This document shows, one piece after another, positions 18,944-33,469 of a stretch of DNA of 64,000 nucleotides (its first letter is position 1; the number at the start of each line of letters is the position of its first letter). This DNA is from Xenophilus aerolatus (GTDB lineage Bacteria > Pseudomonadota > Gammaproteobacteria > Burkholderiales > Burkholderiaceae_C), in contig QAIB01000001.1 in assembly GCA_030418545.1 (NCBI GenBank), forward strand, positions 620,001 through 684,000. Direction: 5' to 3'. Made by a program: the position numbers and the translations under genes. Under the pieces are notes generated by a model. It searched no databases. It saw nothing but the letters and a program-made list of their open reading frames with translations, and had not been told where the DNA came from.

Positions 18944-19675
18944 TCAGCGTCCGCGGCCCGCCACCAGCTTCATGCCGGGCATCAGTTCCGCGGCCAGCTC
19001 GGGCCGTTCGAGCGCGTAGTCGAGGTTCATGCGGGCGATCTCGACATGTTCCTCGCCCAGGGCCTGTGCGCGCGAACCCTGGCCGCGTTCGATCGCCTGC
19101 ACCAGCGCGTGGTGGGTGCGGTGGGCCTGCTGCATCCACTGCTGGCCCTCGCGCATCGACGACTGCATCGGCAGCATGGCGCTGGGCGCCGCGAAGGGCT
19201 GGCTGTCGAGCATCTCCATGATGCGCCGGACCGATGCGTTGCCGCAGCCCTGGATGATGAGGGCGTGGAAGCGGTCGTTCATTTCCACGTAGCCGGCGTA
19301 GTCGTCCAGTTCCATGGTCGGCTTGTTCACGACCTTGTCGCCCTCGTCGAGGCAGTCGTGCAGTTCGCGCAGCAGCTGCCGGGGCGCGCCGTCCTCGGCG
19401 AGCAGGCGGGCTGCGAAGCCCTCGATGACGCCCCGCACGCGGATCGCATCCGCGATCTCCTGCGAGGTGAAGCGCCGCATCTGGTAGCCACCGGCGGGGG
19501 AGGGCTCGATGAGGCCTTCGTGCTCGAGGCTTGCGAGCGCGAGGCGCACGGGCGTGCGCGAGGCCCCCAGCTTCTCGGCCAGGGGGATCTCGGCCAGCCG
19601 CTCGCCGGGGCCGAACTCGCCCTTGAGGATCAGGTCGCGCAGTTGAACCAGGACACGTGACTGTTGGGAATCCAT
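18944..19675 (-). CDS. GntR family regulator, FCD subfamily
   Basis: A 243-residue regulator. The N-terminal winged helix (LRDLILKGEFGPGERLAEIPLAEKLGASRTPVRLALASLEHEGLI) is followed by an all-helical FCD ligand domain (VRGVIEGFAARLL, NDRFHALIIQGCGN). The ATG at 19673-19675 has AAGGAG upstream and is preferred over the ATG ten codons earlier. It faces the Rieske oxygenase operon across a 262-bp divergent region that carries candidate binding sites, so it very probably controls that operon in response to the substrate or a pathway intermediate. Confidence 0.9.
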   Translation of the reverse strand: MDSQQSRVLVQLRDLILKGEFGPGERLAEIPLAEKLGASRTPVRLALASLEHEGLIEPSPAGGYQMRRFTSQEIADAIRVRGVIEGFAARLLAEDGAPRQLLRELHDCLDEGDKVVNKPTMELDDYAGYVEMNDRFHALIIQGCGNASVRRIMEMLDSQPFAAPSAMLPMQSSMREGQQWMQQAHRTHHALVQAIERGQGSRAQALGEEHVEIARMNLDYALERPELAAELMPGMKLVAGRGR

Positions 19676-19683
19676 GGCTCTCC

Positions 19684-19914
19684 TTGTATGCAGTAGCCGG
19701 AGCAAATTCTAGGCGCGCGGTTCGATGTACGCATTGGGCGTGTGTTGGCCCGGATCATGCATGCATCAATAGGTGAAAACCACGGCACGGCGCATTTTTT
19801 ACCTTATTAAGTGCGCCATTCTCCGAACCGGTGCATTGATTTCACGCAAAAAATAGTTAACCCGGCCGAGCATTTCACGACAATGCATCCCATTGCATAC
19901 AACTGAATGCATTG
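19684..19914. promoter_or_regulatory. Divergent control region with candidate GntR sites
   Basis: The nonamer TTGTATGCA (19684-19692) lies just before the gntR ribosome binding site, and its exact reverse complement TGCATACAA is at 19894-19902, 36 bp before the oxygenase start. The second copy lies inside a larger inverted repeat with arms CAATGCAT (19881-19888) and ATGCATTG (19907-19914). The whole 262-bp gap is A/T-richer than its surroundings and holds no gene. Confidence 0.55.
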
Positions 19915-19937
19915 ACTGAAAGGCTTGGAGCTTCACG

Positions 19938-21260
19938 ATGATCAGCGCCGAACAAAACGACCTCATCACCCGCGTGGGACGCGGCACGCCCGCAGGCACG
20001 CTGCTGCGCCGTTACTGGCAGCCGGTGGCCCTGTCGGAGGAGTTGCGCGGTCCGCGCCCGCTGCGGCCGGTGCAGCTCATGGGCCAGCACTTCGTGCTGT
20101 TCCGCGACGAGTCGGGCCGTCTGGGCCTGCTCGACCGCGACTGCCCGCACCGCGGGGCCGACCTGGCCTACGGCCGTCTCGAGAACGGTGGCCTGCGTTG
20201 CGCCTTCCACGGCTGGCTGTTCGACGCCAACGGCCAGTGCCTGGAGACCCCGGCCGAGCCGGCGGGCAGCAAGCTGTGCACGCGCATCCGCCAGGGCGCC
20301 TACCCGGTGGTGGAAAAGAGCGGCATCGTCTTCGCGTACATCGGCGAGGGCGAGCCGCCGGCATTCCCCGAGTTCGACTGCTTCGTCGCGCCCGACAGCC
20401 ACACCTTCGCGTTCAAGGGCCTGTGGGAGTGCAATTGGCTGCAGGCGCTCGAGGTGGGCATGGACCCGGCGCACGCGTCCTTCCTGCATCGCTTCTACGA
20501 GGACGAGGACACCGCCGAGAGCTACGGCAAGCAGTTCCGCGGCGCGTCGGCCGACTCCGACCTGGCCATCACCCAGGTGCTGCGCGAGTACGACCGGCCC
20601 GACATCGCGGCCGAGCCCGCACCCTACGGCATGAAGCTGACCACGCTGCGCAAGCTCTCCGAAGAGCAGACGCACGTGCGGGTGACCAACGTCGTCTTTC
20701 CGCAGGCCTTCGTGATCCCGATGAGTTCGGAGATGACGATCTCGCAGTGGCATGTGCCGGTGGACGACACGCACTGCTACTGGTACGCGATCTTCACCAG
20801 CTTCACCGGTCCGGTGGACAAGGCGCAGATGCGCGAGCAGCGCCTCAAGACCATCGAGCTGCCGCTGTACACCTCGCGCAAGAACAAGCGCAACGAGTAC
20901 GGCTACAGCGTCGAGGAACAGCTGACGCAGACCTACACCGGCATGGGCGAGGACATCAACGTGCACGACCAATGGGCCTGCGAATCCATGGGCCCGATCC
21001 AGGACCGCACGCGCGAGCACCTCGGCACGACCGACAAGGGCATCATGCTCTACCGCCGGATGCTGGTGAAGGCCATCGAGGCCGCGCAGGCGGGCGAGGC
21101 ACTGCCCATGCGGCCCACGGCGCAGGAAGCCGGCACGCTGACGGGGCCGCCGTCGATCGACGGCGTCGCGGCCGCCGACAAGGCCGCCAGCTACTGCGAA
21201 GAGGCCGACCTGGCCCGCCGGCAGGTTTCGGACTGGGCCTCGGCCCGCCTGGCGGCCTGA
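19938..21260 (+). CDS. Rieske non-heme iron oxygenase, alpha subunit (phthalate-dioxygenase-like)
   Basis: A 440-residue oxygenase. The Rieske [2Fe-2S] site is C69-x-H71 and C88-x2-H91 (CPHRG, CAFHGW). The mononuclear iron site is D176-x2-H179-x4-H184 (DPAHASFLH). The start resembles phthalate 4,5-dioxygenase-type homomeric oxygenases, and no beta subunit gene follows. It would use O2 and two electrons to hydroxylate or dealkylate its substrate. The next gene starts 1 nt after the stop, and ferredoxin and reductase genes follow, giving a complete electron chain. The substrate cannot be read from sequence. Confidence 0.92.
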   Translation: MISAEQNDLITRVGRGTPAGTLLRRYWQPVALSEELRGPRPLRPVQLMGQHFVLFRDESGRLGLLDRDCPHRGADLAYGRLENGGLRCAFHGWLFDANGQCLETPAEPAGSKLCTRIRQGAYPVVEKSGIVFAYIGEGEPPAFPEFDCFVAPDSHTFAFKGLWECNWLQALEVGMDPAHASFLHRFYEDEDTAESYGKQFRGASADSDLAITQVLREYDRPDIAAEPAPYGMKLTTLRKLSEEQTHVRVTNVVFPQAFVIPMSSEMTISQWHVPVDDTHCYWYAIFTSFTGPVDKAQMREQRLKTIELPLYTSRKNKRNEYGYSVEEQLTQTYTGMGEDINVHDQWACESMGPIQDRTREHLGTTDKGIMLYRRMLVKAIEAAQAGEALPMRPTAQEAGTLTGPPSIDGVAAADKAASYCEEADLARRQVSDWASARLAA

Positions 21261-21261
21261 G

Positions 21262-22710
21262 ATGAGCACCTTCGCCGAACGCTTCGGTCTCTGGAGCGAC
21301 GAACAACAGGCCCAGGCCAGCGAGATCGTCGGGCGCATCGACGCCGGCGAGCTCGACGTGCTGCGCTTCGCGTGGGCCGACCAGCACGGTGTGCTGCGCG
21401 GCAAGACCCTGGTCGCCGAAGCTGCCCGGGGCGCGCTGGCGCGGGGCGTGAACCTCACCACCACGCTGCTCGCCAAGGACACCTCGCACCGCTCGGTGTT
21501 CCCCGTGTTCTCGGCCGGCGGGGGCTTCGCGCTCGAAGGGCTGCAAGGCGGTGCCGACTTCACGATCCTGGCCGACCCGTCCACCTTCCGCATGCTGCCC
21601 TGGGCGCCGCGCACGGGCTGGGTGCTGTGCGATGCGTTCATGAAGGACGGCCGGCGCTGCCCCTTCGACACGCGGCAGATCCTGCAGCGCGCGGTCGGCC
21701 GGCTGGATTCGCGCGGTCTGGACTTCGTGGCGGGTCTGGAGGTCGAATTCCACGTCTTCAAGCTCGACGACGCGCAGATGCGCCTCGCCGATGCGGGCCA
21801 GCCGGGCACGCCGCCGGCCGTGTCGCTGCTCACGCACGGCCACCAGTACCTGACCGAGCTGCGCTACGACCGCGTGGATGCGCTCATGGAGCTGCTGCGC
21901 ACCCAGCTGCAGGCTCTGGGCCTGCCGCTGCACTCGCTGGAGATCGAGTTCGGCCCCAGCCAGTTCGAGCTGGTGTTCGGTCCCACGGTGGGAATGGCGC
22001 CCGCCGACACCATGGTGCTGCTGCGCAGCGCGATCAAGCAGATCTGCCAGCGCCACGGCTACCACGCCACCTTCATGTGCCGGCCGCGCATTCCCAGCGT
22101 CATGTCCAGCGGCTGGCACCTGCACCAGTCGCTGCGGCACGCGAAGGGGGGCGACAACGCCTTCATGCCCGACGCTGGCGGCGATGACGCAATGCCGCTG
22201 AGCCCGCTCGGCATGCAGTACCTGGCCGGCCTGAAGACCCATGCCCGCGGTGCCGCGGCGCTGGCGAGTCCGACGCTCAACGGCTATCGCCGCTACCGGC
22301 CGTTCTCGCTCGCGCCCGATCGCGCCATCTGGGCGCAGGACAACCGCGGCGCCATGCTGCGCGTGCTCGGCGCGCCGGGCGACAACGCCTCGCGCATCGA
22401 GAACCGCATCGGCGAGCCCACGGCCAACCCCTACCTCTACCTCGCGTCGCAGATCGTCTCGGGCCTGGACGGCGTCGAGCGCGGGCTGGATCCGGGGCCG
22501 TCCGCCGACGCACCCTACGAGACGCCTGCCGAGGAACTGCCCCGCACCCTGGAGGCCGCACTGGCCGCCCTGCAGGCGGACGCCGCGCTCGTCGACGGGC
22601 TCGGGAAGGACTTCGTCGACTACTACTGCCACATCAAGCAGGCCGAGATCGCGCGCTTCAACCTCGAGGTGACCGAGTGGGAGCACCGCGAGTACTTCGA
22701 CATGTTCTGA
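21262..22710 (+). CDS. Glutamine synthetase-like gamma-glutamyl-amide ligase
   Basis: A 482-residue GS-family enzyme. Catalytic core residues are kept: E160-x-E162, E229 and E236, H286 (GWHLHQSL), N340-R343, R362, and E380/R382 (SRIENRIGEPTANPYLYLA). The N-terminal loop that in true GS holds the ammonium-site Asp is different (TTTLLAKDTSHR), and no adenylylation-type C-terminus is seen. Such proteins (PuuA, IpuC, TdnQ) ligate glutamate to amines with ATP. It lies between the oxygenase (1-nt gap) and the ferredoxin, so it probably forms a gamma-glutamyl amide that is oxygenated, as in aniline or isopropylamine catabolism. The substrate is inferred only to be an amine. Confidence 0.85.
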   Translation: MSTFAERFGLWSDEQQAQASEIVGRIDAGELDVLRFAWADQHGVLRGKTLVAEAARGALARGVNLTTTLLAKDTSHRSVFPVFSAGGGFALEGLQGGADFTILADPSTFRMLPWAPRTGWVLCDAFMKDGRRCPFDTRQILQRAVGRLDSRGLDFVAGLEVEFHVFKLDDAQMRLADAGQPGTPPAVSLLTHGHQYLTELRYDRVDALMELLRTQLQALGLPLHSLEIEFGPSQFELVFGPTVGMAPADTMVLLRSAIKQICQRHGYHATFMCRPRIPSVMSSGWHLHQSLRHAKGGDNAFMPDAGGDDAMPLSPLGMQYLAGLKTHARGAAALASPTLNGYRRYRPFSLAPDRAIWAQDNRGAMLRVLGAPGDNASRIENRIGEPTANPYLYLASQIVSGLDGVERGLDPGPSADAPYETPAEELPRTLEAALAALQADAALVDGLGKDFVDYYCHIKQAEIARFNLEVTEWEHREYFDMF

Positions 22711-22735
22711 CCGCCGACGACATCCCGAAACTCAA

Positions 22736-23059
22736 ATGCCCACGATCCACTACATCCTCAAGGATGGCAGCACGCGCAGCGTCGACGCCAAGCTCGGCGC
22801 CAGCGTGATGGAGACCGCCATCCAGCACAACATTCGCGGCATCGACGCCGAGTGCGGCGGCAGCTGCTCCTGCGCGACCTGCCACGTCTATGTCGACGAG
22901 GCCTTCGTCGACCGGCTCACGCCGCCGGACGAGATGGAGGACGAACTGCTGGACGGCACCGCCAGCGAGCGCGCGCCCAACAGCCGCCTCAGCTGCCAGA
23001 TCCCGGTGACGGCCGAACTCGACGGCCTCACGGTGCGCGTGCCGGAGACGCAGGTCTGA
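22736..23059 (+). CDS. [2Fe-2S] ferredoxin, putidaredoxin/adrenodoxin type
   Basis: A 107-residue ferredoxin with cluster ligands C40-x5-C46-x2-C49 and C87 (ECGGSCSCATCHVYVDEAF; LSCQI). It should carry electrons from the reductase encoded next to the Rieske oxygenase. The stop overlaps the reductase ATG by one base (TGATG), implying coupled translation. Ferredoxins of this type usually serve P450s or Rieske systems; only the Rieske enzyme is present here. Confidence 0.93.
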   Translation: MPTIHYILKDGSTRSVDAKLGASVMETAIQHNIRGIDAECGGSCSCATCHVYVDEAFVDRLTPPDEMEDELLDGTASERAPNSRLSCQIPVTAELDGLTVRVPETQV

Positions 23060-24309
23060 TGGCCGACGCGCTGGTCATCGTCGGCGCCTCCTACGCCGGG
23101 GTGCAACTCGCTGCTTCGGCTCGGGAGCTCGGCTTCGATGCGCCGATCGTGCTGCTCGGGGACGAGCGTCACGCGCCGTACCAGCGCCCGCCGCTGTCCA
23201 AGGGGCTGCTCGCCGGCAAGACCGCCGCCGACCAGCTCGCGCTGCGCGGCCCGGACTTCTACGCCCAGCAGCAGATCGAGTTGCGGCTGGGCACGCGTGT
23301 CACAAAGGTGGATCTCTCGACGCAGCGCGTGGAGCTGGCCGACGGCGGCCAGCTGGACTACGGCTGGCTCGCCTTCGCCACCGGCGCGCGCTGCAGGCCG
23401 CTGCAAGTGCCCGGCGCCGATCTGCAGGGCGTGCACCAGCTGCGCACCCTGGACGATGCCATCGCCGTGCACGCGGCGCTGGGCCGCAGCCGGCGGGCCT
23501 GCGTGATCGGCGGCGGCTTCATCGGGCTGGAGGTCGCAGCGGCGCTGACGGCGGCAGGCGCGAGCGTCACCGTGGTCGAGGGCCAGCCGCGCCTGCTCGC
23601 ACGCAGCTTTCCCGCCCTGATGTCCGACTACGTCGCGGATGCGCATCGCGCACGCGGTGTCGCGCTGGAACTGGGCCGGGGCGTCGCGGCACTCGTGGGC
23701 GACGCGCAGGGCCATGTGGCGGCGGTGCTCCTGGACGACGGCCGCCAGCTCGAATGCGACCTGGTGGTCCTCGGCATCGGCGTGCTGCCGAACGTGGAGC
23801 TGGCCGAAGCTGCGGGCATCGCATGCGAAGGCGGCATCCTCGTCGACACGCTGGGTCGCACCAGCGCCCCCCGGGTGCTGGCAGCAGGCGACGTCGCCAA
23901 CATGGCGTTGCCGTCCGCCGCAGCGCCGGGCACGGTGCGCATGCGGCTCGAATCCATCCAGGCCGCCAACGACGGCGCGCGCGCCGCGGCATCGGTGCTG
24001 GTCGGCCGGCCCCAGCCGCTCACGGCCGTGCCCTGGTTCTGGAGCGATCAGCACGACCTGAAATTCCAGATGGCCGGGCTGCCAGCGCCGGGCGACCGCA
24101 CGGTGCTGCGCGGCGAGCTCGCCGACCACCGCTTCACGCTCTTCTACCTGCGCGAGGGGCGCGTCGCCGCGGCACACTCGGTGAATCGTCCGGCCGAGCA
24201 CATGCTCGCCCGCAAGCTGATCGCCCATGGCGCCGACATCCCCGTCGAGCTGCTCGCCGACCCGGCCAGCGACCTCAAGCCTTTTTCCATCCCCCGGCCT
24301 GCGGGCTGA
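23059..24309 (+). CDS. FAD-dependent ferredoxin reductase
   Basis: A 416-residue glutathione-reductase-fold flavoprotein of the putidaredoxin/rhodocoxin reductase class. The FAD Rossmann motif VIVGASYAGVQLA is at the N-terminus, YQRPPLSKGLL is the class signature, the NAD site is CVIGGGFIGLEVAAAL near residue 150, and VLAAGDVAN is the second FAD contact. It transfers electrons from NADH to the ferredoxin. Start ATG 23059 follows directly from the ferredoxin stop. Pairing a GR-type reductase with a phthalate-like oxygenase is less usual than the FNR-type single reductase. Confidence 0.92.
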   Translation: MADALVIVGASYAGVQLAASARELGFDAPIVLLGDERHAPYQRPPLSKGLLAGKTAADQLALRGPDFYAQQQIELRLGTRVTKVDLSTQRVELADGGQLDYGWLAFATGARCRPLQVPGADLQGVHQLRTLDDAIAVHAALGRSRRACVIGGGFIGLEVAAALTAAGASVTVVEGQPRLLARSFPALMSDYVADAHRARGVALELGRGVAALVGDAQGHVAAVLLDDGRQLECDLVVLGIGVLPNVELAEAAGIACEGGILVDTLGRTSAPRVLAAGDVANMALPSAAAPGTVRMRLESIQAANDGARAAASVLVGRPQPLTAVPWFWSDQHDLKFQMAGLPAPGDRTVLRGELADHRFTLFYLREGRVAAAHSVNRPAEHMLARKLIAHGADIPVELLADPASDLKPFSIPRPAG

Positions 24310-24331
24310 GTTCTTCCCACGGAGTTCCACG

Positions 24332-25510
24332 ATGAAGATGACCAAACGTACCCTGCTCGCCGCCGCGGCACTGGCCTGCGTGGCCGGCGCGGTGCAAGCC
24401 CAGGACGCGCTGAAGATCGGCCTGATCGGCACCTATTCCGGCCCCTATGCCGATTACGGTCGCCAGTTCGACGCGGGCGTCGCGCTGTACCTCAAGGAGC
24501 ACGGCAACAAGATCGCCGGCCGCCCGGTCGAGATCATCAAGAAGGACACGGCCGGCCCTGCGCCCGATGCCTCCAAGCGCATCGCGCAGGAACTGGTGGT
24601 GCGCGACAAGGTGCAGATCCTGACGGGCCTGGACTTCAGCCCCAACGCGTATGCCGTCGCGGCCGTGGCGACCCAGGCCAAGATTCCCACGGTGGTGATG
24701 AACGCCTCGTCCTCGGCGATCACGACCAGCTCGCCCTACGTCGCGCGCCTGTCGTTCACGGTGCAGCAGGTGTCCGACCCGATGGCCCGCTGGATGCTGC
24801 GCAACGGCACCAAGGAAGCCTATGTGGTGGTCGCCGACTACGCCTCGGGCACGGACTCGCTGACGGCCTTCAAGAAGGCCTTCGAGGGTGGCGGCGGCAA
24901 GGTGGTCGGGGAACTGCGCACGCCGATGAACAACCCCGACTTCTCCGCCTACGTGCAGCGCATCAAGGATGCCAAGCCGCAGTCGGTGTTCTTCTTCTTC
25001 CCCTCCGGCGTGATGCCGCCCGCCTTCCTCAAGGTGTGGAAGGAGCGCGGCATGGACGAGGCCGGCATCAAGCTCTACGCCACCGGCGAGGCGACCGACG
25101 ACAGCTACCTCGACGCCACCGGCGACGTGGCCCTGGGCCTGGTGACCAGCCACCACTATTCCTACGCCCATCCCTCGGCCAAGAACCAGAAGTTCGTGAA
25201 GGACTTCGAGGCGCAGTTCGGCACCGGCCTGCGTCCGAGCTACTTCGCCGTGACGGCCTACGACGCCATGGCCGCCATCGACCTGGCCCTGAAGAAGACC
25301 GGCGGCAATGCCGATGGCGACAAGGTGATGGACGCCCTCAAGGGCCTGGCCTTCGAGAGCCCGCGCGGCCCGATCGAGATCGATGCCGCCACGCGCGACA
25401 TCGTGCAGACGGTCTACATCCGCAAGACCGAGAAGGTCAACGGCAAGCTGGTCAACGTGGAGTTCGACAAGTTCGACCGCGTGAAGGACCCGGCCAAGGA
25501 AGCCAAGTGA
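24332..25510 (+). CDS. Branched-chain amino acid-type ABC transporter substrate-binding protein
   Basis: A 392-residue periplasmic binding protein (Peripla_BP_6/LivK-like). Signal peptide 1-23 (MKMTKRTLLAAAALACVAGAVQAQ); the mature start is IGLIGTYSGPYADYGRQFDAGVALYL, typical of HAAT-family receptors that often bind aromatic or other catabolic substrates instead of amino acids. GGAG lies 8-11 nt before the ATG. Co-transcription with the oxygenase genes upstream (22-bp gap) and the permeases downstream suggests it captures the pathway substrate. Confidence 0.9.
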   Translation: MKMTKRTLLAAAALACVAGAVQAQDALKIGLIGTYSGPYADYGRQFDAGVALYLKEHGNKIAGRPVEIIKKDTAGPAPDASKRIAQELVVRDKVQILTGLDFSPNAYAVAAVATQAKIPTVVMNASSSAITTSSPYVARLSFTVQQVSDPMARWMLRNGTKEAYVVVADYASGTDSLTAFKKAFEGGGGKVVGELRTPMNNPDFSAYVQRIKDAKPQSVFFFFPSGVMPPAFLKVWKERGMDEAGIKLYATGEATDDSYLDATGDVALGLVTSHHYSYAHPSAKNQKFVKDFEAQFGTGLRPSYFAVTAYDAMAAIDLALKKTGGNADGDKVMDALKGLAFESPRGPIEIDAATRDIVQTVYIRKTEKVNGKLVNVEFDKFDRVKDPAKEAK

Positions 25511-25515
25511 CGCTT

Positions 25516-25565
25516 GCGCCCACCGGGCGCTGACTCCGGCACGGGGCGCACGCCAGGGCGCCCCG
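25516..25565 (+). other. Two intercistronic hairpins between receptor and permease genes
   Basis: Hairpin 1: GCGCCC (25516-25521), 3-nt loop, GGGCGC (25525-25530), starting 5 nt after the receptor stop. Hairpin 2: CGGGGCGC (25542-25549) with GCGCCCCG (25558-25565). Neither is followed by a T-tract, so they look like mRNA-stabilising or attenuating structures that could raise receptor over permease expression. Confidence 0.5.
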
Positions 25566-25585
25566 CGCCTCGCATCGGGAATCCA

Positions 25586-26446
25586 ATGGGAATCGTCCTT
25601 TTCGACGGGGTGGCCTACGGCATGCTCCTCTTCCTCATGGCGGTGGGCCTGTCCATCACCATGGGCTTGATGAACTTCGTCAACCTCGCGCACGGCAGCT
25701 TCGCGGTCGTGGGCGGGTACGCGGCCGCGGTGCTCATGAACCGGCTGGGCCTGCCGTACGGGCTGGCGCTGGTGGCGGCCTTCGTGGCCGCGGCGCTGCT
25801 CGGTGCCGTGCTCGAGTTCGTGTTCTACCGCCGCCTGTATCGCGCGCATCCGCTGGACCAGGTGCTGCTGTCGATCGGCGTGGTGTTCGTCTCGATCGCC
25901 GTGCTGACCTACTTCTTCGGGCCGACCATGCTGCCTTTCAACCTGCCGCCGGCGCTGCAGGGGCAGTTCTCCTTCGCCGGCGTCGGATTGGGACGCTACA
26001 GGCTGTTCCTCATCGTCTGCGGCGTGGCGACCCTGGTGTTGCTGCTGCAGCTCATGAACCGCACGCGCTACGGCGCGATGGTGCGCGCGGCCGTCGACAA
26101 CCAGCGCGTGGCCGGCGGCACGGGCATCCATGTGCAGCGGCTGTTCTTCCTGACCTTCTCGCTGGGCTGCGGGCTGGCGGGGCTGGGCGGCGCGCTGAGC
26201 CTGGGCATGCTCGGCCTGGAGCCCTCGTTTCCGCTGAAGTACCTGGTGTACTTCCTGATCGTGGTCTGCGTGGGCGGGGCGGGCACCGTCACCGGGCCCT
26301 TCATCGCCGCGCTGCTGGTCGGCGTGGTCGACGTGGCCGGCAAGTACTACCTGCCCGAGGCCGGCGTGTTCCTGATCTACGTCTTCATGATCGGGATGCT
26401 GCTGCTGCGCCCGAACGGCATCGTTCCCAAGAAGGGGCTCGCATGA
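25586..26446 (+). CDS. Branched-chain-type ABC transporter permease, LivH-like
   Basis: A 286-residue inner-membrane permease with about 8 hydrophobic segments and LivH features (ITMGLMNFVNLAHGSFAVVGGY near the N-terminus; GLGGALSLGMLGLEPSFPLKYLVYFLIVVCVGGAGTVTGPFIAALLVG). The ATG at 25586 begins directly with the first transmembrane segment; the frame is open earlier but lacks similarity. Its stop overlaps the next permease start (ATGA, 26443-26446). It forms the channel with the LivM-like partner. Confidence 0.9.
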   Translation: MGIVLFDGVAYGMLLFLMAVGLSITMGLMNFVNLAHGSFAVVGGYAAAVLMNRLGLPYGLALVAAFVAAALLGAVLEFVFYRRLYRAHPLDQVLLSIGVVFVSIAVLTYFFGPTMLPFNLPPALQGQFSFAGVGLGRYRLFLIVCGVATLVLLLQLMNRTRYGAMVRAAVDNQRVAGGTGIHVQRLFFLTFSLGCGLAGLGGALSLGMLGLEPSFPLKYLVYFLIVVCVGGAGTVTGPFIAALLVGVVDVAGKYYLPEAGVFLIYVFMIGMLLLRPNGIVPKKGLA

Positions 26447-27408
26447 AAGCCATCACCCTGTCGCCGGGCCAGTCGCGCGCGGCCGAAATCGCGTTCTGGC
26501 TGCTGCTGGCCTGCAGCTACTTCATCGCGCCCAACCATCTCACGCTGCTGAGCCAGATCCTGATCTTCGGCCTTTTCGCCGTGGCGCTGGACATGGCGCT
26601 GGGCTATGCCGGCATCCTCACCGTGGGCCATGCGGCCTTCTTCGGTGCGGGTGCGTACACCGCCGGCCTGCTGGCCAAGCACGGCTGGGGCGAGCCCTTC
26701 AGCGGCCTGCTGGCCGCGCTGGTCGTGGCCGGCGTACTGGGCTACCTGCTCAGCTACCTCATCGTGCGCGGCGCCGACCTCACGCGGCTGATGATCACCA
26801 TCGGCGTGTGCGTGCTGCTGGCCGAGCTGGCCAACCGGCTGTCGGGCATCACCGGTGGCACCGATGGCCTGCAGGGCATGGTCGTGAAGCCGGTCCTGGG
26901 CCTGTTCGAGTTCGACCTGTTCGGCAAGACCGCCTTCGTCTATGCCTTCGCCGTCGTGCTGGCCATGTTCCTGCTCGTGCGGCTGGTGCTGCGCTCGCCC
27001 TTCGGCCTGGCGCTGCGTGGCATCCACGACAACCGCAAGCGCATGCTGGCCATCGGTTCGCCGGTGGAGGCCCGGCTGCGCATGGCCTACGCCTTCTCGG
27101 CCGCAGTGGCCGGCGTGGCGGGCGCGCTGCTGGCGCAGACCACGCAGTTCGTGGGCATCGAGTCCATCGGCTTCAACCGCTCGGCCGAGATACTGATCAT
27201 CCTGGTGCTGGGCGGCACGGGGCGGCTGTACGGCGGCCTGGTCGGCGCGATCGTCTACATGCTGGTGCACGACTGGTTCGCCGACATGAACCCGGAGTAC
27301 TGGATGTTCTGGCTCGGCATCTTCCTGATCGCGGCCGTGATGCTGGGCCGCGGCGGCATCATGGGCGCGCTGTCGCGCCGCATCCGCATCAAGGAGCATG
27401 CACGATGA
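26443..27408 (+). CDS. Branched-chain-type ABC transporter permease, LivM-like
   Basis: A 321-residue permease with about 9 hydrophobic segments and LivM features (GYAGILTVGHAAFFGAGAYTAGLLA; LRGIHDNRKRMLAIGSPVEARLRMAYAFSAAVAGVAGALLAQ, containing the EAA-like loop that contacts the ATPase). It overlaps the LivH-like gene upstream by 4 nt and is followed by the small ORF that bridges to the LivG-like gene. It is part of the same importer. Confidence 0.9.
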   Translation: MKAITLSPGQSRAAEIAFWLLLACSYFIAPNHLTLLSQILIFGLFAVALDMALGYAGILTVGHAAFFGAGAYTAGLLAKHGWGEPFSGLLAALVVAGVLGYLLSYLIVRGADLTRLMITIGVCVLLAELANRLSGITGGTDGLQGMVVKPVLGLFEFDLFGKTAFVYAFAVVLAMFLLVRLVLRSPFGLALRGIHDNRKRMLAIGSPVEARLRMAYAFSAAVAGVAGALLAQTTQFVGIESIGFNRSAEILIILVLGGTGRLYGGLVGAIVYMLVHDWFADMNPEYWMFWLGIFLIAAVMLGRGGIMGALSRRIRIKEHAR

Positions 27409-27467
27409 GCGCGCTCTCGCATCGCGGTGCCCGCGGCGCACGGCGCAAGACGGGGAGTGGGGCATGA
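27405..27467 (+). CDS. Possible 20-codon coupling ORF between livM- and livG-like genes
   Basis: ATG at 27405 overlaps the permease stop as ATGA, and its TGA (27465-27467) overlaps the ATPase start as ATGA. The product would be 20 residues, Arg/Gly/Ala-rich (MSALSHRGARGARRK...). It bridges the 55-nt gap exactly, which suggests a role in translational coupling; chance cannot be excluded. Confidence 0.3.
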   Translation: MSALSHRGARGARRKTGSGA

Positions 27468-28237
27468 CCGCACTGCAGACACAGGGCCTGGGCATCAGCT
27501 TCGGCGCGTTCCAGGCGGTGGCCGAGGTCGGGCTGTCGCTGGAGCCCGGCGCACGCCAGGCGCTGATCGGCCCCAACGGCGCGGGCAAGACCACGCTGAT
27601 CAACCTGCTGACCGGCATCTACCGCCCCAGCGCCGGCAGCATCCGCATGAACGGCGAGGACATCACGGGCTGGGCGGCGGACCGGCGCGCCCGCGGCGGT
27701 CTGGCGCGGACCTTCCAGATCAACACGCTGTTCCCGAGCCTCACGCCGCTGCTCTCCGTCGTGCTGGCCATCCACGAGCGCGAAGGGCAGGGCGCGACCT
27801 GGTGGCGCCCCTTCGGGCGCAGCAAAGCGGCCTTCGACGAGGCCCATGCGCTGCTGGATCGCCTGCGGCTGGGAGCCCTGGCCGACGTGCCGGTGGCCGA
27901 GCTGGCCTACGGCAAGCAGCGGCTGCTCGAGATCGCCCTGGCGCTGGCCGCGCGGCCGCGCATCCTGCTGCTGGACGAGCCGGCCGCCGGCGTGCCGGTG
28001 GACGAGAGCGGCGAGCTCTTCGAGGCGATCGCCGAACTGCCCGAGGACATCAGCGTCCTCTTCATCGAGCACGACATGAACCTGGTGTTCCGCTTCGCGC
28101 GTCGCATCTCCGTGCTGGTGGGCGGACGCATCCTGACCGAGGGGACGCCGGCCGAGATCGGCCGCGATCCGCGCGTGCGCGAGGTCTACCTGGGCAAGAC
28201 CCACGTCAACATCCGCAAGGAGGCGACCGATGCCTGA
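27464..28237 (+). CDS. Branched-chain-type ABC transporter ATP-binding protein, LivG-like
   Basis: A 257-residue ATPase. Walker A is GPNGAGKTT near residue 38; Walker B is ILLLDEPAAG, followed by the switch histidine in FIEHDMN. The signature loop reads LAYGKQRLLEIALAL, a LivG-type variant of LSGGQ. The LivG-specific RTFQINTLFPSLT is present. GGGGAG precedes the ATG at 27464. The stop overlaps the LivF-like start by 8 nt. It energises the importer together with LivF. Confidence 0.92.
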   Translation: MTALQTQGLGISFGAFQAVAEVGLSLEPGARQALIGPNGAGKTTLINLLTGIYRPSAGSIRMNGEDITGWAADRRARGGLARTFQINTLFPSLTPLLSVVLAIHEREGQGATWWRPFGRSKAAFDEAHALLDRLRLGALADVPVAELAYGKQRLLEIALALAARPRILLLDEPAAGVPVDESGELFEAIAELPEDISVLFIEHDMNLVFRFARRISVLVGGRILTEGTPAEIGRDPRVREVYLGKTHVNIRKEATDA

Positions 28238-28940
28238 ACTGCTGGCCTTCGACGCCGTCACTGCCGGGTACGGCAATGCGGTCGTGCTCCACCGCCTCGG
28301 CTTCGCGCTGCAGGCCGGCCAGAGCCTGGCCGTCCTGGGGCGAAACGGGGTGGGCAAGACCACCACGCTCGAGACGCTGATGGGCAACACCCGCATCACG
28401 GGCGGCGAGATCCGCTGGCGTGGGCAGGACATTACCCGCCTCCCGGCGCACCAACGCGTGCGCGCCGGCCTGGGCTGGGTGCCGCAGGAGCGCGAGGTCT
28501 TTCCGTCGCTGACCGTGGAGGAGAACCTGGGCGTGGTCGCCCGGCCGGGGGCCTGGAACCTCGACCGTGTCTACGGCCTGTTCCCCCGACTGCGCGAGCG
28601 CCGCGCCAACTACGGCAACCAGCTCTCGGGCGGTGAACAGCAGATGCTGGCCATCGGCCGCGCGCTGATGACCAACCCCACGCTGCTGCTGCTCGACGAA
28701 CCCATGGAGGGCCTGGCGCCCATCATCGTGGAGGAGCTTGCCCGGGCCATCCGCCACCTCTGCGAGAGCGAGGGGCTGGCCTCCATCGTGGTCGAGCAGC
28801 ACCCGGTGCTGGCACTGGAGATGACGCATCAGGCGATCGTGCTGGAGCGCGGCACGGTGGTGCATGCCGGGCCCAGCGCGGCGCTGGCTGCGGATCCGGA
28901 GCGCCTGGACCGGCTGCTCGGCGTGGGCATGCCTGCCTGA
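28230..28940 (+). CDS. Branched-chain-type ABC transporter ATP-binding protein, LivF-like
   Basis: A 236-residue ATPase with Walker A GRNGVGKTT, the LivF signature GWVPQEREVFPSLTVEENL, the ABC signature LSGGEQQMLAIGRAL, Walker B LLLLDEPMEGLAP and switch His in VVEQHP. AAGGAGG precedes the ATG. It completes the five-component importer of the Rieske/GS-like cluster. Confidence 0.92.
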   Translation: MPELLAFDAVTAGYGNAVVLHRLGFALQAGQSLAVLGRNGVGKTTTLETLMGNTRITGGEIRWRGQDITRLPAHQRVRAGLGWVPQEREVFPSLTVEENLGVVARPGAWNLDRVYGLFPRLRERRANYGNQLSGGEQQMLAIGRALMTNPTLLLLDEPMEGLAPIIVEELARAIRHLCESEGLASIVVEQHPVLALEMTHQAIVLERGTVVHAGPSAALAADPERLDRLLGVGMPA

Positions 28941-29032
28941 GCAGCACCGCGCGTCCCCATTCGCCATGAGAGTCCCGGTTCGCCGGACCTCCTCAGGCAG
29001 CCCCTACCTGAAACGACAAGGAGACAGTCGAC

Positions 29033-30784
29033 ATGAAGACCCACGCATCCTCCCCACCCGATCGCACGGCCCGCACCGCGAGCACCCGTGCTCGCCAGCT
29101 TGCAATCAGCTCCCTGGCGATCGCCGCCGCCGTGCTGGCGGCGGGCTGTGCGCATCGCCCCGCCGCTCAGCCCGACGTGGCCTACGTCAACGGCCGGATC
29201 ATCACCGCCGACAAGAGTTTCTCGATCGCACAGGCCGTCGCGATCAAGGACGGCGCCTTCGTGGCGGTCGGCACCGACGAGCGCATCCGTGAACTGATCG
29301 CCCCCCAGACCCGGGTCGTCGATCTGCAGGGACGCACGGTCGTCCCCGGCCTGATGGATGCGCACACGCACATGGACGGTGCCGGGACCGTCGAGACCAC
29401 GGCCCAGGTGATCAAGGCACGGACCGTGGCCGAGGCGCAAGCCATCATCGGCGACTTCATTCGCACCAAGTCCATCCCCGCGGGCCAGTGGGTGCAGACG
29501 AGCCGCTGGCACCCGCCGTCGCAGTTGAAGGAGCAGCGCTACCTGACGCGCCAGGAACTCGATGCCGTGGCGCCGAACCACCCGGTCTACGTGCAGACCG
29601 TCGGCCACTTCGCGATGGCCAACAGCAAGGCCCTCGCCGCCGCGGGCATCACGCGCGACACGCCCGACCCGGTGGGCGGGAAGATCCATCGCGACGCGAA
29701 CGGCGAGCCGACCGGCGTCGTCGAATCGAGCGCGCTGCAGCTGGTCGAGAAGATCATTCCGCCACCCAGCTTCGAGCAGCGCGTGGCGCAGAACATCGCG
29801 GGCCAGCGCGTGTACAACCGCTCGGGCATCACCAGCACGGTGGTCGCCGGCCTCAACGAGGAGCAGATCAAGGCGTACTACGCCGCGGCCGAGCGCGGGC
29901 AGTCGACGGTGCGGGCCGGCATGTTCTGGCTCTTCCCCGCGGCGGCGGCGCCCGACTTCGAGGCCAGGCTCAAGGCCGCGCCGTTCAAGGACGGCCAGGG
30001 CAACGACTGGGCGCGGGTGGCCGGCATCAAGCTGGTCTCCGATGGCGGCATGACCCTCAAGTCCGCGTACATCCGCGGCAACTATGCCAACGAACCCAAC
30101 AACCACGGGATGGTCGCCGTCGATCCGGAGTCCTACGTGCGCATGGTTCGGGTGGCCAACCGCAACGGATGGCGGGTCCACACGCACGCGGTGGGCGACG
30201 CGGCCGTGGACCTCACGCTGAAGGCCTACGCCGCCGCCAATGCGGACAGCTCCATCGCGGGCCGGCGCTTCAGCGTCGTGCACGGCAGCCTGGTCGCGGC
30301 CGACCAGATCGAGACCGCACGCGGCCTCGACGTGCGCATCGACGCCCAGAACGCCTTCCTGTGGGACAAGGCGGCAACCGTCGAGCGCTACATGGGGCCG
30401 CTGCTCGCCAACCGGGCGGTTCCCACGCGGCGCCTGATCGACGTGCTGGGCATGGAGCGCACGTCCGCCGGCACCGACAACGAAGTCAACCTGCTCAACC
30501 CTTTCATCGGCATGTACCTCATGGTGACGCGCAAGGACCCGCGCGGCGTCGTGTACGGCGCGGACCAGAAGATCTCCCGCGAAGAGGCACTCCGGCTGTA
30601 CACGAACGCGGGCCCCTACCTGACCTTCGAGGAAAAGCGCAAGGGCTCCATCGAGGCCGGGAAGCTGGCCGACATGGTGGTGCTGTCGGCGGACTATCTG
30701 GGCGTGCCCGAAGAGAAGATCAAGGACATCGTGGCGCTGGAAACGATCGTCGGCGGCCGCTCGGTGTACCGCGCAGCGCCCTGA
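29033..30784 (+). CDS. Amidohydrolase family 3 lipoprotein
   Basis: A 583-residue metal-dependent hydrolase with an N-terminal lipoprotein signal; lipobox LAAGC with the acylated Cys at residue 39, so it should be membrane-anchored and face the periplasm. The amidohydrolase core begins VAYVNGRIITADKSFSIAQAVAIKDGAFVAVG; the metal motif is H111-T-H113 (DAHTHMDG), with further histidines in RVHTHAVGDAA and SVVHGS, and the closing GKLADMVVLSADY. The YtcJ/NfdA-like class hydrolyses amide, formamide or cyclic amide bonds. AAGGAG precedes the start. It may release the amine or acid substrate outside the cytoplasm before uptake. Confidence 0.85.
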   Translation: MKTHASSPPDRTARTASTRARQLAISSLAIAAAVLAAGCAHRPAAQPDVAYVNGRIITADKSFSIAQAVAIKDGAFVAVGTDERIRELIAPQTRVVDLQGRTVVPGLMDAHTHMDGAGTVETTAQVIKARTVAEAQAIIGDFIRTKSIPAGQWVQTSRWHPPSQLKEQRYLTRQELDAVAPNHPVYVQTVGHFAMANSKALAAAGITRDTPDPVGGKIHRDANGEPTGVVESSALQLVEKIIPPPSFEQRVAQNIAGQRVYNRSGITSTVVAGLNEEQIKAYYAAAERGQSTVRAGMFWLFPAAAAPDFEARLKAAPFKDGQGNDWARVAGIKLVSDGGMTLKSAYIRGNYANEPNNHGMVAVDPESYVRMVRVANRNGWRVHTHAVGDAAVDLTLKAYAAANADSSIAGRRFSVVHGSLVAADQIETARGLDVRIDAQNAFLWDKAATVERYMGPLLANRAVPTRRLIDVLGMERTSAGTDNEVNLLNPFIGMYLMVTRKDPRGVVYGADQKISREEALRLYTNAGPYLTFEEKRKGSIEAGKLADMVVLSADYLGVPEEKIKDIVALETIVGGRSVYRAAP

Positions 30785-30835
30785 GCGCCATCCCGCTGGC
30801 TACGGCGATCCCCTGGACCCACCTTCGGTCAACGC

Positions 30836-31201
30836 ATGCCCCATATCGTCATCGAATACACCCCCAACCTAAAAGGCCTGCCACTGGACGCGATGCTGGC
30901 GGCCGTGACGCGGCGGCTGGCCGACAGCGAGGAGGTCGCCGACGAGGCGGACCTGAAGGCACGGGTGATCTGCGTCGAGGCCTTTCGCGTCGGGCTGGCC
31001 GAGTCCGCGCGGGCATTCATCCACGTCACCGTGCGCATCCTGGCCGGCCGCGATGAGCAGGCCAAGAAGGATTTCAGCGATCGGGTCACCGAGGGCATGC
31101 TCGAGCACCTGCCGAGTCTGCCTCCGGGCCTGCAGGCCCACCTGAGCGTCGAGGTCGTCGACATGGACCCGGGCAGCTACCGCAAGACACGCCTGGCCTG
31201 A
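30836..31201 (+). CDS. 5-carboxymethyl-2-hydroxymuconate isomerase-like protein
   Basis: A 121-residue tautomerase-fold protein resembling HpaF/HpcD, with the conserved N-terminal proline after the initiator Met (MPHIVIEYTPNL) that acts as catalytic base. The C-terminus LSVEVVDMDPGSYRK fits the family. The classical enzyme isomerises the ring-cleavage product of homoprotocatechuate. No other homoprotocatechuate genes are here, so the substrate may differ. It is the last plus-strand gene of the cluster, 51 bp after the amidohydrolase. Confidence 0.8.
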   Translation: MPHIVIEYTPNLKGLPLDAMLAAVTRRLADSEEVADEADLKARVICVEAFRVGLAESARAFIHVTVRILAGRDEQAKKDFSDRVTEGMLEHLPSLPPGLQAHLSVEVVDMDPGSYRKTRLA

Positions 31202-31222: not shown

Positions 31223-32116
31223 TCAGTGCCGGTGCGACTGCGCCTGCAGCAGGGCCGCGAAGGCCTGCGCGGCCGGCGACAGCGCCAGGCTGCGGCGCTG
31301 GTACACGAAGAACTCCCGGTTCAGCGCGGGCGACCGCAGCGCGAGGAAGCGGATGCCGAAATTGCCTGCGAAGGATCGCGCGTAGTCCGGCACCATCGCC
31401 ACGCCCAGCCCGGCGCCGACCAGGGCCAGCGCGGTGGTCAGGTAGCGCACCTCGGTCGCCGTCTGCATCGACAGCGATGCGTCGTGCTCGTGCAGCCGCT
31501 GCTCGACGTAGCGGCTGAAGTCGCCCGAATACACCACCCAGCGCTGGTCGCGCAGATCGCGCCATGAGACGGTCTGCCGCCCCGCGAGCGGGTGGCTGGC
31601 GGCGCACACCAGGCGCATGGGCACGTGCATGAGGAAGCTGCGCGTCACGTCCTCGCCCGTCACCCGCTCGGGGCCGATGCCCAGCTCGGCGTCGCCGCGG
31701 CGCACGGCGCCCACGATGTCGTCGGCCGAGCCGTCGACGATCCGCAGGCCCACGGTGGGGTGGGCCTGCTCGAAGCGCGCCAGCACGCCGGCCACCCAGG
31801 TGCAGGCCATCAACTGCGGCGCCACCACGCGCAGCACGCCGCTCCTGAGCAGGCGAAGGTCGGTGGCGCCTTCCTCGATCTGGCGCAGGTCGTCCAGCAT
31901 GCGGCGCGCCAGCGGCAGCAGCTGCTGCCCGCCTTCGGTGAGGGTGACGGCATGGCGCGAGCGGTCGAACAGCTTCAGGCCGAGCTCCTCTTCCAGTTGC
32001 TGCACCAGCATGCTGACGGCCGACTGGGTGAGGTTCAGCTGCCTGGCGGCCAGCGTGAAGCTCGCGGTGCGTGCCACCACGGAGAACGCACGCATCTGGC
32101 GGAGGGTGAGGTTCAT
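31223..32116 (-). CDS. LysR family transcriptional regulator
   Basis: A 297-residue LysR protein: winged helix in residues 1-~65 (LRQMRAFSVVARTASFTLAARQLNLTQSAVSMLVQQLEEELGLKLFDR) and a type-2 periplasmic-fold ligand domain after residue 90. The ATG at 32116 starts the usual MNLTLRQ. It diverges from the DadA-like oxidase gene at 32225, with 108 bp between them containing A/T-rich ATCAAAAATCC and ATCAATCAAATGAATTCG stretches where a LysR box would lie. It probably controls the 32225-37031 genes. Confidence 0.88.
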   Translation of the reverse strand: MNLTLRQMRAFSVVARTASFTLAARQLNLTQSAVSMLVQQLEEELGLKLFDRSRHAVTLTEGGQQLLPLARRMLDDLRQIEEGATDLRLLRSGVLRVVAPQLMACTWVAGVLARFEQAHPTVGLRIVDGSADDIVGAVRRGDAELGIGPERVTGEDVTRSFLMHVPMRLVCAASHPLAGRQTVSWRDLRDQRWVVYSGDFSRYVEQRLHEHDASLSMQTATEVRYLTTALALVGAGLGVAMVPDYARSFAGNFGIRFLALRSPALNREFFVYQRRSLALSPAAQAFAALLQAQSHRH

Positions 32117-32224
32117 GTCTGCACCATTGTGGCGCCGGCCGGCAGCAAAAATCAAAAATCCTCATGCATCAATCAAATGAATTCGTTGGATTGATGGACA
32201 TGGCGTGCCCACAATGCGCTTCCT

Positions 32225-33469
32225 ATGCATGTCGCCGTCATCGGGACCGGCATCGTCGGCACCTGCACCGCAGCATGGTTGCAGCGCGACGGTCAGCAGG
32301 TCAGCTTCTTCGATCCACTGCCGCCGGGCGAGGCCTGTTCGTTCGGCAATGCGGGGTCCCTGTCGCCCAGCGCCTGCCTGCCGGTGGGCATGCCGGGCAT
32401 GGTCAAGCGGGTGCCGCAGTGGCTGCTCGACCCGCTGGGACCGCTCACGGTGCGCTGGCGCTATGCGCCCGCCGTGCTGCCGTGGCTGGTGCGCATGCTG
32501 CGCCACTCCACGCGCGAGGAGGTCACCCGCATCGCGACGGCGCTGCGCAGCCTGCTGGAACCCATCTTCGAGTGCTACGAGCCCTTGCTCGAGCAGGCGG
32601 GGGCGCAGCACCTGGTGCGCCGCTCGGGTTGCCTGTACGTGTATTCCTCCCGCGAGAAAGCGGCCCAATGGAGCTGGGGCATGAACCTGCGCCGGTCGCT
32701 GGGCGTCGAGATGGTGGACGTGGGCCAGGACGAACTCGAGGCGCTGGAGCCCGACCTGAAGGGACGCTTTCGCTTCGGCATCCGCGCGCCCGAGAACGGC
32801 TCCACGCTCGACCCGTCGGCGCTGGTCAAGGTGCTCCATGCGCATTGCGTGGCGCAAGGCGCAGCCTCCGTGCGGCAGGCCGTCACCGGCTTCGAGCGCG
32901 AAGGCCGCGGCGCGCGGCAGGTCACGGCCGTGCGCACGGCCGACGGGCAGCGCACGCCGGTGGACGGTGTGGTGGTCGCGGCCGGGGCGTGGTCTGCCAG
33001 GCTCGCGGCGCAACTGGGTTCGCGCGTGCCGCTGGAAACGCAGCGCGGCTACCACGTCACGGTGCGCAGCTCCAACCTCAAGCTGCGCCACACGGTGATG
33101 GCGGTGGAGAACAACCTGATGGTCAACCCCATGGCGATGGGCCTGCGGCTGGCCGGGACGGTGGAGTTCGCCGGGCTGAAGGCGCCGCCGCGCTACGAAC
33201 GCGCGCAGGCCCTGCTGCGCCTGGGCCAGCAGCTCTTCCCGCACCTGGACACGAGCGACACGACGCAGTGGATGGGCCACCGGCCCTGCCTGCCCGACAG
33301 CCTGCCGGTCATCGGCCGTGCGGGCGCTACCGACAACGCCTGGCTCGCCTTCGGGCACGGGCACATGGGCATGTGCATGGGCGCGAGCACGGGGCGCGAA
33401 GTGGCGCACCTGGTGGCCGGGCGCACCACGCAGGTCGACCTCGGGCCCTTCAGTCCGGCGCGCTTCTGA
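32225..33469 (+). CDS. FAD-dependent D-amino acid dehydrogenase-like oxidoreductase (DadA family)
   Basis: A 414-residue DAO-fold flavoprotein. The dinucleotide motif VIGTGIVGTCTAAWLQRDG is at residues 5-23 and CSFGNAGSLSPSACLPVGMPG is the DadA-like signature; WMGHRPCLPDSLPVIGRA and the C-terminal GHGHMGMCMGASTGREVA are also typical. It oxidises an amine, probably a D-amino acid or a related imino acid, to the keto acid and passes electrons to the membrane. The hydantoinase-type gene and RidA that follow fit release and deamination of an amino acid derivative. Confidence 0.85.
   Translation: MHVAVIGTGIVGTCTAAWLQRDGQQVSFFDPLPPGEACSFGNAGSLSPSACLPVGMPGMVKRVPQWLLDPLGPLTVRWRYAPAVLPWLVRMLRHSTREEVTRIATALRSLLEPIFECYEPLLEQAGAQHLVRRSGCLYVYSSREKAAQWSWGMNLRRSLGVEMVDVGQDELEALEPDLKGRFRFGIRAPENGSTLDPSALVKVLHAHCVAQGAASVRQAVTGFEREGRGARQVTAVRTADGQRTPVDGVVVAAGAWSARLAAQLGSRVPLETQRGYHVTVRSSNLKLRHTVMAVENNLMVNPMAMGLRLAGTVEFAGLKAPPRYERAQALLRLGQQLFPHLDTSDTTQWMGHRPCLPDSLPVIGRAGATDNAWLAFGHGHMGMCMGASTGREVAHLVAGRTTQVDLGPFSPARF

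Follow-up and report, generated by a model that had tools for sequence, protein, structure and literature searches.

A GntR-linked gene cluster of Xenophilus aerolatus with a probable role in the gamma-glutamylation-dependent degradation of an acidic aromatic amine

Introduction

Which compound is degraded by a gene cluster that places a glutamine synthetase-like enzyme directly behind a Rieske oxygenase, and follows the two with electron carriers and an importer? The question is raised by a stretch of 64,000 nt, called here the window, within the 5.84-Mb genome of Xenophilus aerolatus (GCA_030418545.1, contig QAIB01000001.1, positions 620,001–684,000). A first-pass annotation, made from the letters alone, had proposed import, gamma-glutamylation and oxygenation of an unknown amine, perhaps liberated from an amide, by an uncharacterised system having a single-subunit phthalate-type Rieske oxygenase (RO) and a glutamine synthetase-like protein (GS). 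The reading of open reading frames (ORFs) and family scans confirm the coordinates and families given there, including the 1-nt gap between RO (ending at 21260) and GS (starting at 21262), and the window cluster indeed contains neither a beta subunit gene nor a TdnT-like or glutamine amidotransferase-like gene.

We read the cluster as a probable catabolic operon under GntR control whose substrate is an acidic aromatic amine, 4-aminobenzoate being the likeliest. The components of this reading differ in strength. Dioxygenation dependent on gamma-glutamylation of an aromatic amine is proposed with good confidence, and an anionic amine is likely, whereas 4-aminobenzoate itself as the main substrate is a leading suggestion from sequence, in which confidence falls slightly short of even.

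Co-conservation of the oxygenase and ligase genes

A scan of genome contigs with an alignment of the GS returned at least 557 relatives, making the family a widespread one. The best 80 of these (61–100% identity) were kept; counts over the 80 loci use identity thresholds, and loci cut at sequence ends count as absences. The window and Xenophilus sp. E41 have the same GS (100% identity). In 79/80 loci the gene immediately 5' of GS, in the same orientation, is RO, with gaps of 5–344 nt, and the lone exception (L076) is a stretch that begins 185 bases before GS. Because the pair recurs in 79/80 loci, its pairing is not due to chance. Beyond the pair, a complete importer set (binding protein gene and LivHMGF) is present in 39 loci, the order from RO to LivF is complete in 25, and an amidotransferase-like or C26 hydrolase gene occurs in 22/80.

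In the host's own family, RO is found at E 1e-80 in 65/299 sampled genomes and falls into two identity groups, 74–100% (14 genomes) and 51–63% (51 genomes, clade II); GS adjoins RO in 30/30 loci listed out of 66 matches for this family. In a sample of the phylum, RO occurs in 21/398 genomes (12/213 genera). The two proteins have also diverged together, pairwise RO and GS identities being correlated at r = 0.91 over 71 representatives (<90% GS identity), a value reached in 0/2000 permutations.

The glutamine synthetase-like ligase

The GS (21262..22710, plus strand; Gln-synt_C) is assigned as an aromatic-amine glutamyl ligase from its match to NpaA1, its position in a tree and its fold. NpaA1 (8wwu) is the best solved relative (415 bits, the next having 177). 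According to PMC11335346, NpaA1 was shown to glutamylate 1-naphthylamine and anilines, its F75 is a tunnel-bottleneck residue, and arylamine glutamyl ligases have lost the Asp50 and Glu-flap residues of GlnA. In a fold comparison with a structure model of the window GS (pLDDT 74.4), the first 13 matches are all NpaA1 entries (TM 0.84–0.86), and other GS among the first 50 reach TM 0.71–0.76. In a 53-row tree, the 13 other GS group together (97/98), and the window GS sits among the GS of RO-GS loci, far from the host GlnA, which is encoded elsewhere in the genome and is 28–30% identical.

Residues of NpaA1 were mapped by alignment, chain numbers being those of the paper plus 15. E232, E234, V201, W235, F86, M81, and F75 of NpaA1 correspond to E227, E229, Y196, F230, F83, S78, and K72 of the window GS. 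The amine-binding acid pair is kept (E227 and E229 in 136/136 rows), but the hydrophobic aromatic tunnel formed in NpaA1 by F75, M81, F86, and W235 is not, K72, S78, F83, and F230 being only partly aromatic. Lys72 is the signature of the group: it is present in 132/132 RO-GS-type rows (120 distinct; 72/72 representatives at <90% identity) and in 0/13 other GS (12 at <90%), which have Phe (11), His (1) or Val (1), and 8/13 of which lie near alpha-beta ROs. The position of NpaA1 M81 is Ser or Thr across the 132 rows, with Asn in one. Further loci gave a GS match in 11/12, all with Lys, two of them from genomes already counted. A fixed positive charge at position 72 would fit an amine that carries a carboxylate or sulfonate.

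The Rieske oxygenase

The RO (19938..21260, plus strand) has Rieske and LigXa_C domains with the full ligand set and is nearest to phthalate-type ROs. Its Rieske ligands are C69, H71, C88, and H91; H179, H184, and D344 are the iron ligands and D176 the bridging residue. Its structure model has a mean pLDDT of 52.9 and was not used. On alignment, R248 corresponds to R244 of phthalate dioxygenase (PDO) and R234 of isophthalate dioxygenase (IPDO), and is kept in 131/131 rows. These arginines bind the substrate carboxylate, and replacing R234 abolishes IPDO activity, as reported in PMC12445078. With Lys72 in the GS and a carboxylate-binding Arg in the RO, the amine therefore probably carries an acid group.

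Proposed pathway

The Liv-type importer would take up the substrate, and the ligase would use ATP and glutamate to convert the ring amine to a gamma-glutamyl amide, which for 4-aminobenzoate would be gamma-glutamyl-4-aminobenzoate. NAD(P)H would supply electrons, by way of the FAD reductase and then the ferredoxin, to the RO, which is predicted to dioxygenate the amide-bearing ring carbon and the neighbouring carbon. The adduct would collapse to protocatechuate with loss of the glutamyl-amide nitrogen, glutamine being the expected product, and the LigAB pathway of the host could then cleave the ring. Conversion of gamma-glutamylanilide to catechol is described in PMC4539516 and PMC11335346. 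For the window cluster, we infer the substrate, the regiochemistry, and the form in which nitrogen leaves.

Much of the first-pass annotation is carried over into this scheme. Its scheme of an amine that is imported, gamma-glutamylated and oxygenated is supported, at the level of sequence, by a GS that by best matches and tree stands apart from ammonium-using GlnA and by a gene order that is co-conserved, with RO-GS in 79/80 loci. The refuting conditions named there that sequence can address, grouping with GlnA and lack of co-conservation, thus both fail. The substrate, left there as an unknown amine, is still read as an amine and is now narrowed to an acid-bearing aromatic one, most likely 4-aminobenzoate. 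The idea that it is liberated from an amide is weak, because the lipoprotein amidohydrolase gene occurs in only 7/80 loci.

Clues to the substrate

Genes around some of the related loci point toward protocatechuate. In Palleronia LCG004, RO is followed further on by GS and a tautomerase gene, and the opposite strand carries pcaB, pcaD, a BKACE gene, pcaG, pcaH, and pcaC. An IclR ORF cluster (c11) is found in 16/98 loci. Four IclR regulators were scored on TIGR02431 (PcaR/PcaU/PobR; cut-off 284.75), and those of Methylobacterium (L007) and Bradyrhizobium (L084) reach 297.8 and 312.2, respectively. Clusters of Caballeronia, Cupriavidus, and Methylobacterium include nitroreductase-family and DUF4863 genes, and the DUF4863 protein scanned (L006) is PnbB, 4-hydroxylaminobenzoate lyase (201 bits); Caballeronia-type clusters also have a gene for a PcaK-like transporter. 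In the 4-nitrobenzoate route, a nitroreductase and the PnbB lyase lead to protocatechuate. The host itself has ligA, ligB, and ligK above cut-offs, with ligC- and ligI-family genes beside them. When the host genome was searched for Dioxygenase_C, two proteins came up, each of them catechol-1,2-dioxygenase-like and scoring below cut-offs; a PcaGH pair was not found.

Several observations weigh against this reading. The protocatechuate neighbours in Palleronia belong to a distant relative (RO 52%, GS 46%), and a clear pca set is present in no other of the 105 loci, weak matches being a 27% pcaH-like one (L059) and one of 33% (L184). The marine IclR proteins (L134, L138) score 210 and 183 on TIGR02431, below its cut-off, as does the PcaK-like transporter of L006 relative to curated cut-offs. 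The lig genes are common and no specific marker; PnbB is likewise non-specific, two host copies lying away from the cluster (L145, L146). Clade II loci (L120–L131) adjoin genes that by eye resemble the gentisate pathway. As to the cluster itself, the importer is complete in 39/80 loci, and the ferredoxin and reductase are present in 48/80 and 32/80. The Lys72 GS are not resolved as a single clade in the 53-row tree, and Lys72 is placed in the tunnel by ungapped alignment to NpaA1. In the RO the second basic contacts are not matched, PDO R207 falling near T212 in a gapped stretch and IPDO H257 on Q270, so that just one of two carboxylate contacts remains. Finally, a metabolic reconstruction for Ralstonia includes degradation of 4-aminobenzoate by way of 3-oxoadipate (PMC10470067), and another route may therefore exist.

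Two side observations concern these neighbourhoods. One host PnbB-family gene adjoins a regulator gene resembling the one for the benzoate (box) pathway. By eye, clade II loci have gentisate- or 3-hydroxybenzoate-like genes together with a TRAP importer, each gene being present in 2–8 of the 12 loci, and a small ABM-like gene in 6/12.

Alternative substrates

Lys72 and Arg248 would be equally suited to a sulfonate. A sulfonated aniline such as sulfanilate, converted to 4-sulfocatechol as in the sad operon of Hydrogenophaga, is an unlikely alternative: the enzyme set equals sadA (RO), sadB (GS), and a ferredoxin, and plasmid pSA3 of Novosphingobium resinovorum SA1, which is listed under sulfanilic acid, carries a relative of the cluster (L008). 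It is set back by the Dioxygenase_C search, which gave no PcaGH pair in the host genome able to cleave 4-sulfocatechol, and by hosts such as Bradyrhizobium and leaf or root isolates, which speak for a substrate of natural origin; for sad, Gan et al. argue likewise (PMC5632844). Slightly less likely is an aminoaryl amide or amino acid of larger size, such as 4-aminohippurate or p-aminobenzoyl-glutamate, that would be trimmed outside the cell by the amidohydrolase and inside by the DadA-like oxidase before entering the RO-GS route. The window set does have a lipobox amidohydrolase and an adjoining DadA gene, DadA recurs by 7/80 clusters, and an amidase-like ORF was seen by eye in three loci. Both genes, however, are confined to 7/80 loci each, and 0/80 loci pass the thresholds for the two together. 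Many of the loci, however, are cut off short of where DadA would show; L010, for example, is a near-identical copy of the window that ends before the DadA position.

It is improbable that the amine is uncharged, as the aniline-like (AtdA) and aliphatic (Ipu) examples of the first-pass annotation would suggest. The GS family does include aniline and naphthylamine ligases, but the tunnel Phe is replaced by Lys72 in 132/132 rows, the M81 position is Ser/Thr (Asn in one), and the 13 other GS, 8 of them near alpha-beta ROs, group apart in the tree (97/98). An ordinary role of the GS in nitrogen assimilation or polyamine metabolism, with its place next to the oxygenase a coincidence, is scarcely credible. 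In favour of it are NCBIfam matches to GGputSyn, GS III, and GlnA, all far below cut-offs; against it, the genome has a separate GlnA elsewhere (28–30% identical), and the conserved pairing, in adjacency (79/80) as in co-divergence (r 0.91), contradicts such a coincidence. Assignment as GlnA or a polyamine enzyme was accordingly ruled out by best matches and tree.

No GS-RO pair assigned to 4-aminobenzoate was found in the open literature searched. It is tentatively suggested that the missing genetic route for aerobic 4-aminobenzoate breakdown in Proteobacteria may be a large, previously unrecognised, Lys72-marked family of oxygenases that depend on glutamylation, of which the xenobiotic sad operon would be an offshoot and in which one marine lineage would have a split RO, its Rieske domain being a protein apart.

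Regulation

The GntR/FCD regulator gene (18944..19675, minus strand; Pfam FCD 69 bits, GntR 50 bits) is divergent from RO and occurs in 59/80 loci; its likely start was corrected from 19705 to 19675 on reading of the sequence. The consensus TTGYATRCAA is found exactly once in the window (0.06 expected), as TTGCATACAA at 19893..19902, with 35 nt between its end and the RO start codon. Exact sites occur in 42/58 divergent GntR-RO intergenic regions (56 sites), and sites with at most one mismatch in 55/58. Mononucleotide shuffles of the 58 regions gave means of 0.08 (exact) and 1.75 (at most one mismatch), with maxima of 1 and 5; such shuffles leave relatedness in place, but GntR identities across the regions range over 61–100%. 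The whole 1.19 Mb of the 58 loci holds 57 exact sites. TTGYATRCAA is therefore put forward as a candidate operator that GntR may bind. An operator-like second site with one mismatch, TTGTATGCAG at 19684..19693, is weak alone (1.7 such sites are expected by chance per window); L013 has the exact form at the same distance. A sigma-70 promoter scan found no match (0.7 expected), and a single terminator-like site lies on the minus strand, vs 4.0 expected.

Other genes of the cluster

Downstream of GS, all on the plus strand, lie genes for a [2Fe-2S] ferredoxin (22736..23059; Fer2, 48/80 loci) and an FAD/NAD ferredoxin reductase of the Reductase_C type (23059..24309; Pyr_redox_2 and Reductase_C, 32/80). 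They are followed by those of the importer: a periplasmic binding protein (24332..25510; Peripla_BP_6, 40/80), LivH- and LivM-type permeases (25586..26446 and 26443..27408; 40/80 and 39/80), and LivG- and LivF-type ATPases (27464..28237 and 28230..28940; 39/80 each). The four Liv proteins were assigned by 80–82% identity to Polaromonas genes annotated as parts of a branched-chain ABC (ATP-binding cassette) importer. Likely starts were corrected, on reading of the sequence, for the reductase (23059), binding protein (24332), LivH (25586), and LivG (27464). By coordinates, gaps are 1 nt between RO and GS, 25 between GS and ferredoxin, 22 between reductase and binding protein, 75 between binding protein and LivH, 55 between LivM and LivG, 92 between LivF and the amidohydrolase gene, and 51 between the latter and the tautomerase gene; ferredoxin and reductase share an ATGA overlap, and LivH-LivM and LivG-LivF also overlap. 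The spacing is tight. The genes may form one transcript.

The accessory lipoprotein of the Amidohydro_3 family (29033..30784, plus strand) has a signal sequence and an LAAGC lipobox at its N-terminus and is 66% identical to its counterpart in the Cupriavidus pinatubonensis cluster. Occurring in 7/80 loci, it was ruled out as a core component. An amidase-like ORF was seen by eye in the Comamonas composti cluster (L055:19265–20686), between a second binding protein and an amidotransferase gene, its ORF cluster being present in three loci. The next gene (30836..31201, plus strand) encodes a CHMI-family tautomerase that keeps its N-terminal Pro-1 and is found in 7/80 loci at >=60%. Distant forms lie directly 3' of GS in four other records (L008, L134, L138, L181), among them those of Novosphingobium, Pseudooceanicola, and Palleronia (32–34%). 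On pSA3 (L008), the tautomerase gene beside GS has maleylacetate reductase and dihydropteroate synthase genes nearby.

The set may extend to the pair at 31223–33469, a LysR regulator (31223..32116, minus strand; 8/80 loci at >=60%) and a DadA-like FAD amino-acid dehydrogenase (32225..33469, plus strand; 7/80 at >=65%). A LysR-DadA pair is also seen upstream of GntR-RO in L021, L034, L035, and L036, and it may belong to the pathway.

As regards an amidotransferase, a query of the host genome with the Polaromonas-cluster protein, 29% identical to an aniline-type one, came back empty at E 1e-10; it was run without a positive control. A relative of C26 gamma-glutamyl hydrolase is encoded on another host contig (40% over residues 45–221 of 249).

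Split oxygenases on two marine plasmids

In Pseudooceanicola algae p111 (L134:9837–11510) and the Palleronia LCG004 plasmid (L138:978–2645), the RO alpha protein is devoid of Rieske ligands, with its iron site and R248 intact, and a separate Rieske protein of ~130 aa is encoded directly upstream, by a gene unannotated in Palleronia. With the small protein of P. algae, the Rieske domain of the Polaromonas RO shares 53% identity and the small Palleronia protein 71%, and Pfam gives a single Rieske match on each plasmid. Four nearer relatives (68–73%) keep intact Rieske motifs. The motif search expression missed 1/21 loci (L180), and the RO of the same genome in L128 has the ligands. Nothing on split ROs was found in the literature searched.

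Comparison with known systems

The general kind of system is already known from sadA-sadB and from aniline degraders, and what is new is the substrate prediction. The wider family thereby gains a testable substrate prediction, a residue marker vs aniline-type ligases, and a candidate operator. If the prediction is true, genes can be named for the turnover of 4-aminobenzoate, a folate precursor and vitamin building block, with relevance to the cycling of folate precursors and to the degradation of azo dyes and nitroaromatics. Azo-dye strains of Xenophilus and Pigmentiphaga grow on carboxylated dyes that yield 4-aminobenzoate, a point for which the literature search gave no confirmation. The window cluster lacks the gene families of the 4-nitrobenzoate route that its Caballeronia, Cupriavidus, and Methylobacterium counterparts have.

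The phthalate-type ROs PDO (7fjl) and IPDO (9ina) resemble the window RO in being single-subunit enzymes with the carboxylate Arg (R244/R234, here R248); unlike them, the latter lacks the second basic contact and is accompanied by separate [2Fe-2S] ferredoxin and FAD reductase genes. We know of no GS partner for PDO or IPDO. The aniline and 1-naphthylamine systems (AtdA, TdnQTA1A2B, NpaA1–A5) share gamma-glutamylation of an arylamine before Rieske dioxygenation, and their GS (L132, L133, L136) are 42–47% identical to that of the window. In them, however, the RO is of the alpha-beta type, an amidotransferase gene is present, and Phe stands in place of Lys72. The missing TdnT-like gene, taken by the first-pass annotation as a defining difference, does not serve as one, since genes of the amidotransferase-like or C26 hydrolase kind are present in 22/80 loci. 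The essential nature of sadB in E. coli was reportedly found by Gan et al. in 2012.

The sad operon is the closest known counterpart, and calling the system uncharacterised is not supported: in PMC5632844, sad of Hydrogenophaga consists of sadA (RO), sadB (GS), and a ferredoxin acting on 4-aminobenzenesulfonate as a 3,4-dioxygenase, with SadA and SadB printed as WP_009515254 and WP_009515256. It is common and conserved in Hydrogenophaga, the authors noting the lack of a known natural substrate and expecting a natural analogue as the original one. Compared by gene content and order only, the window cluster and sad of Hydrogenophaga sp. PBC share an RO, a GS-like protein and a ferredoxin; no beta subunit is named in the text consulted for sad, which deaminates an acidic para-aminoarene. 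Unlike sad, the window cluster has an importer, a tautomerase, an amidohydrolase, and an adjacent reductase, and the substrate predicted for it is a carboxylate.

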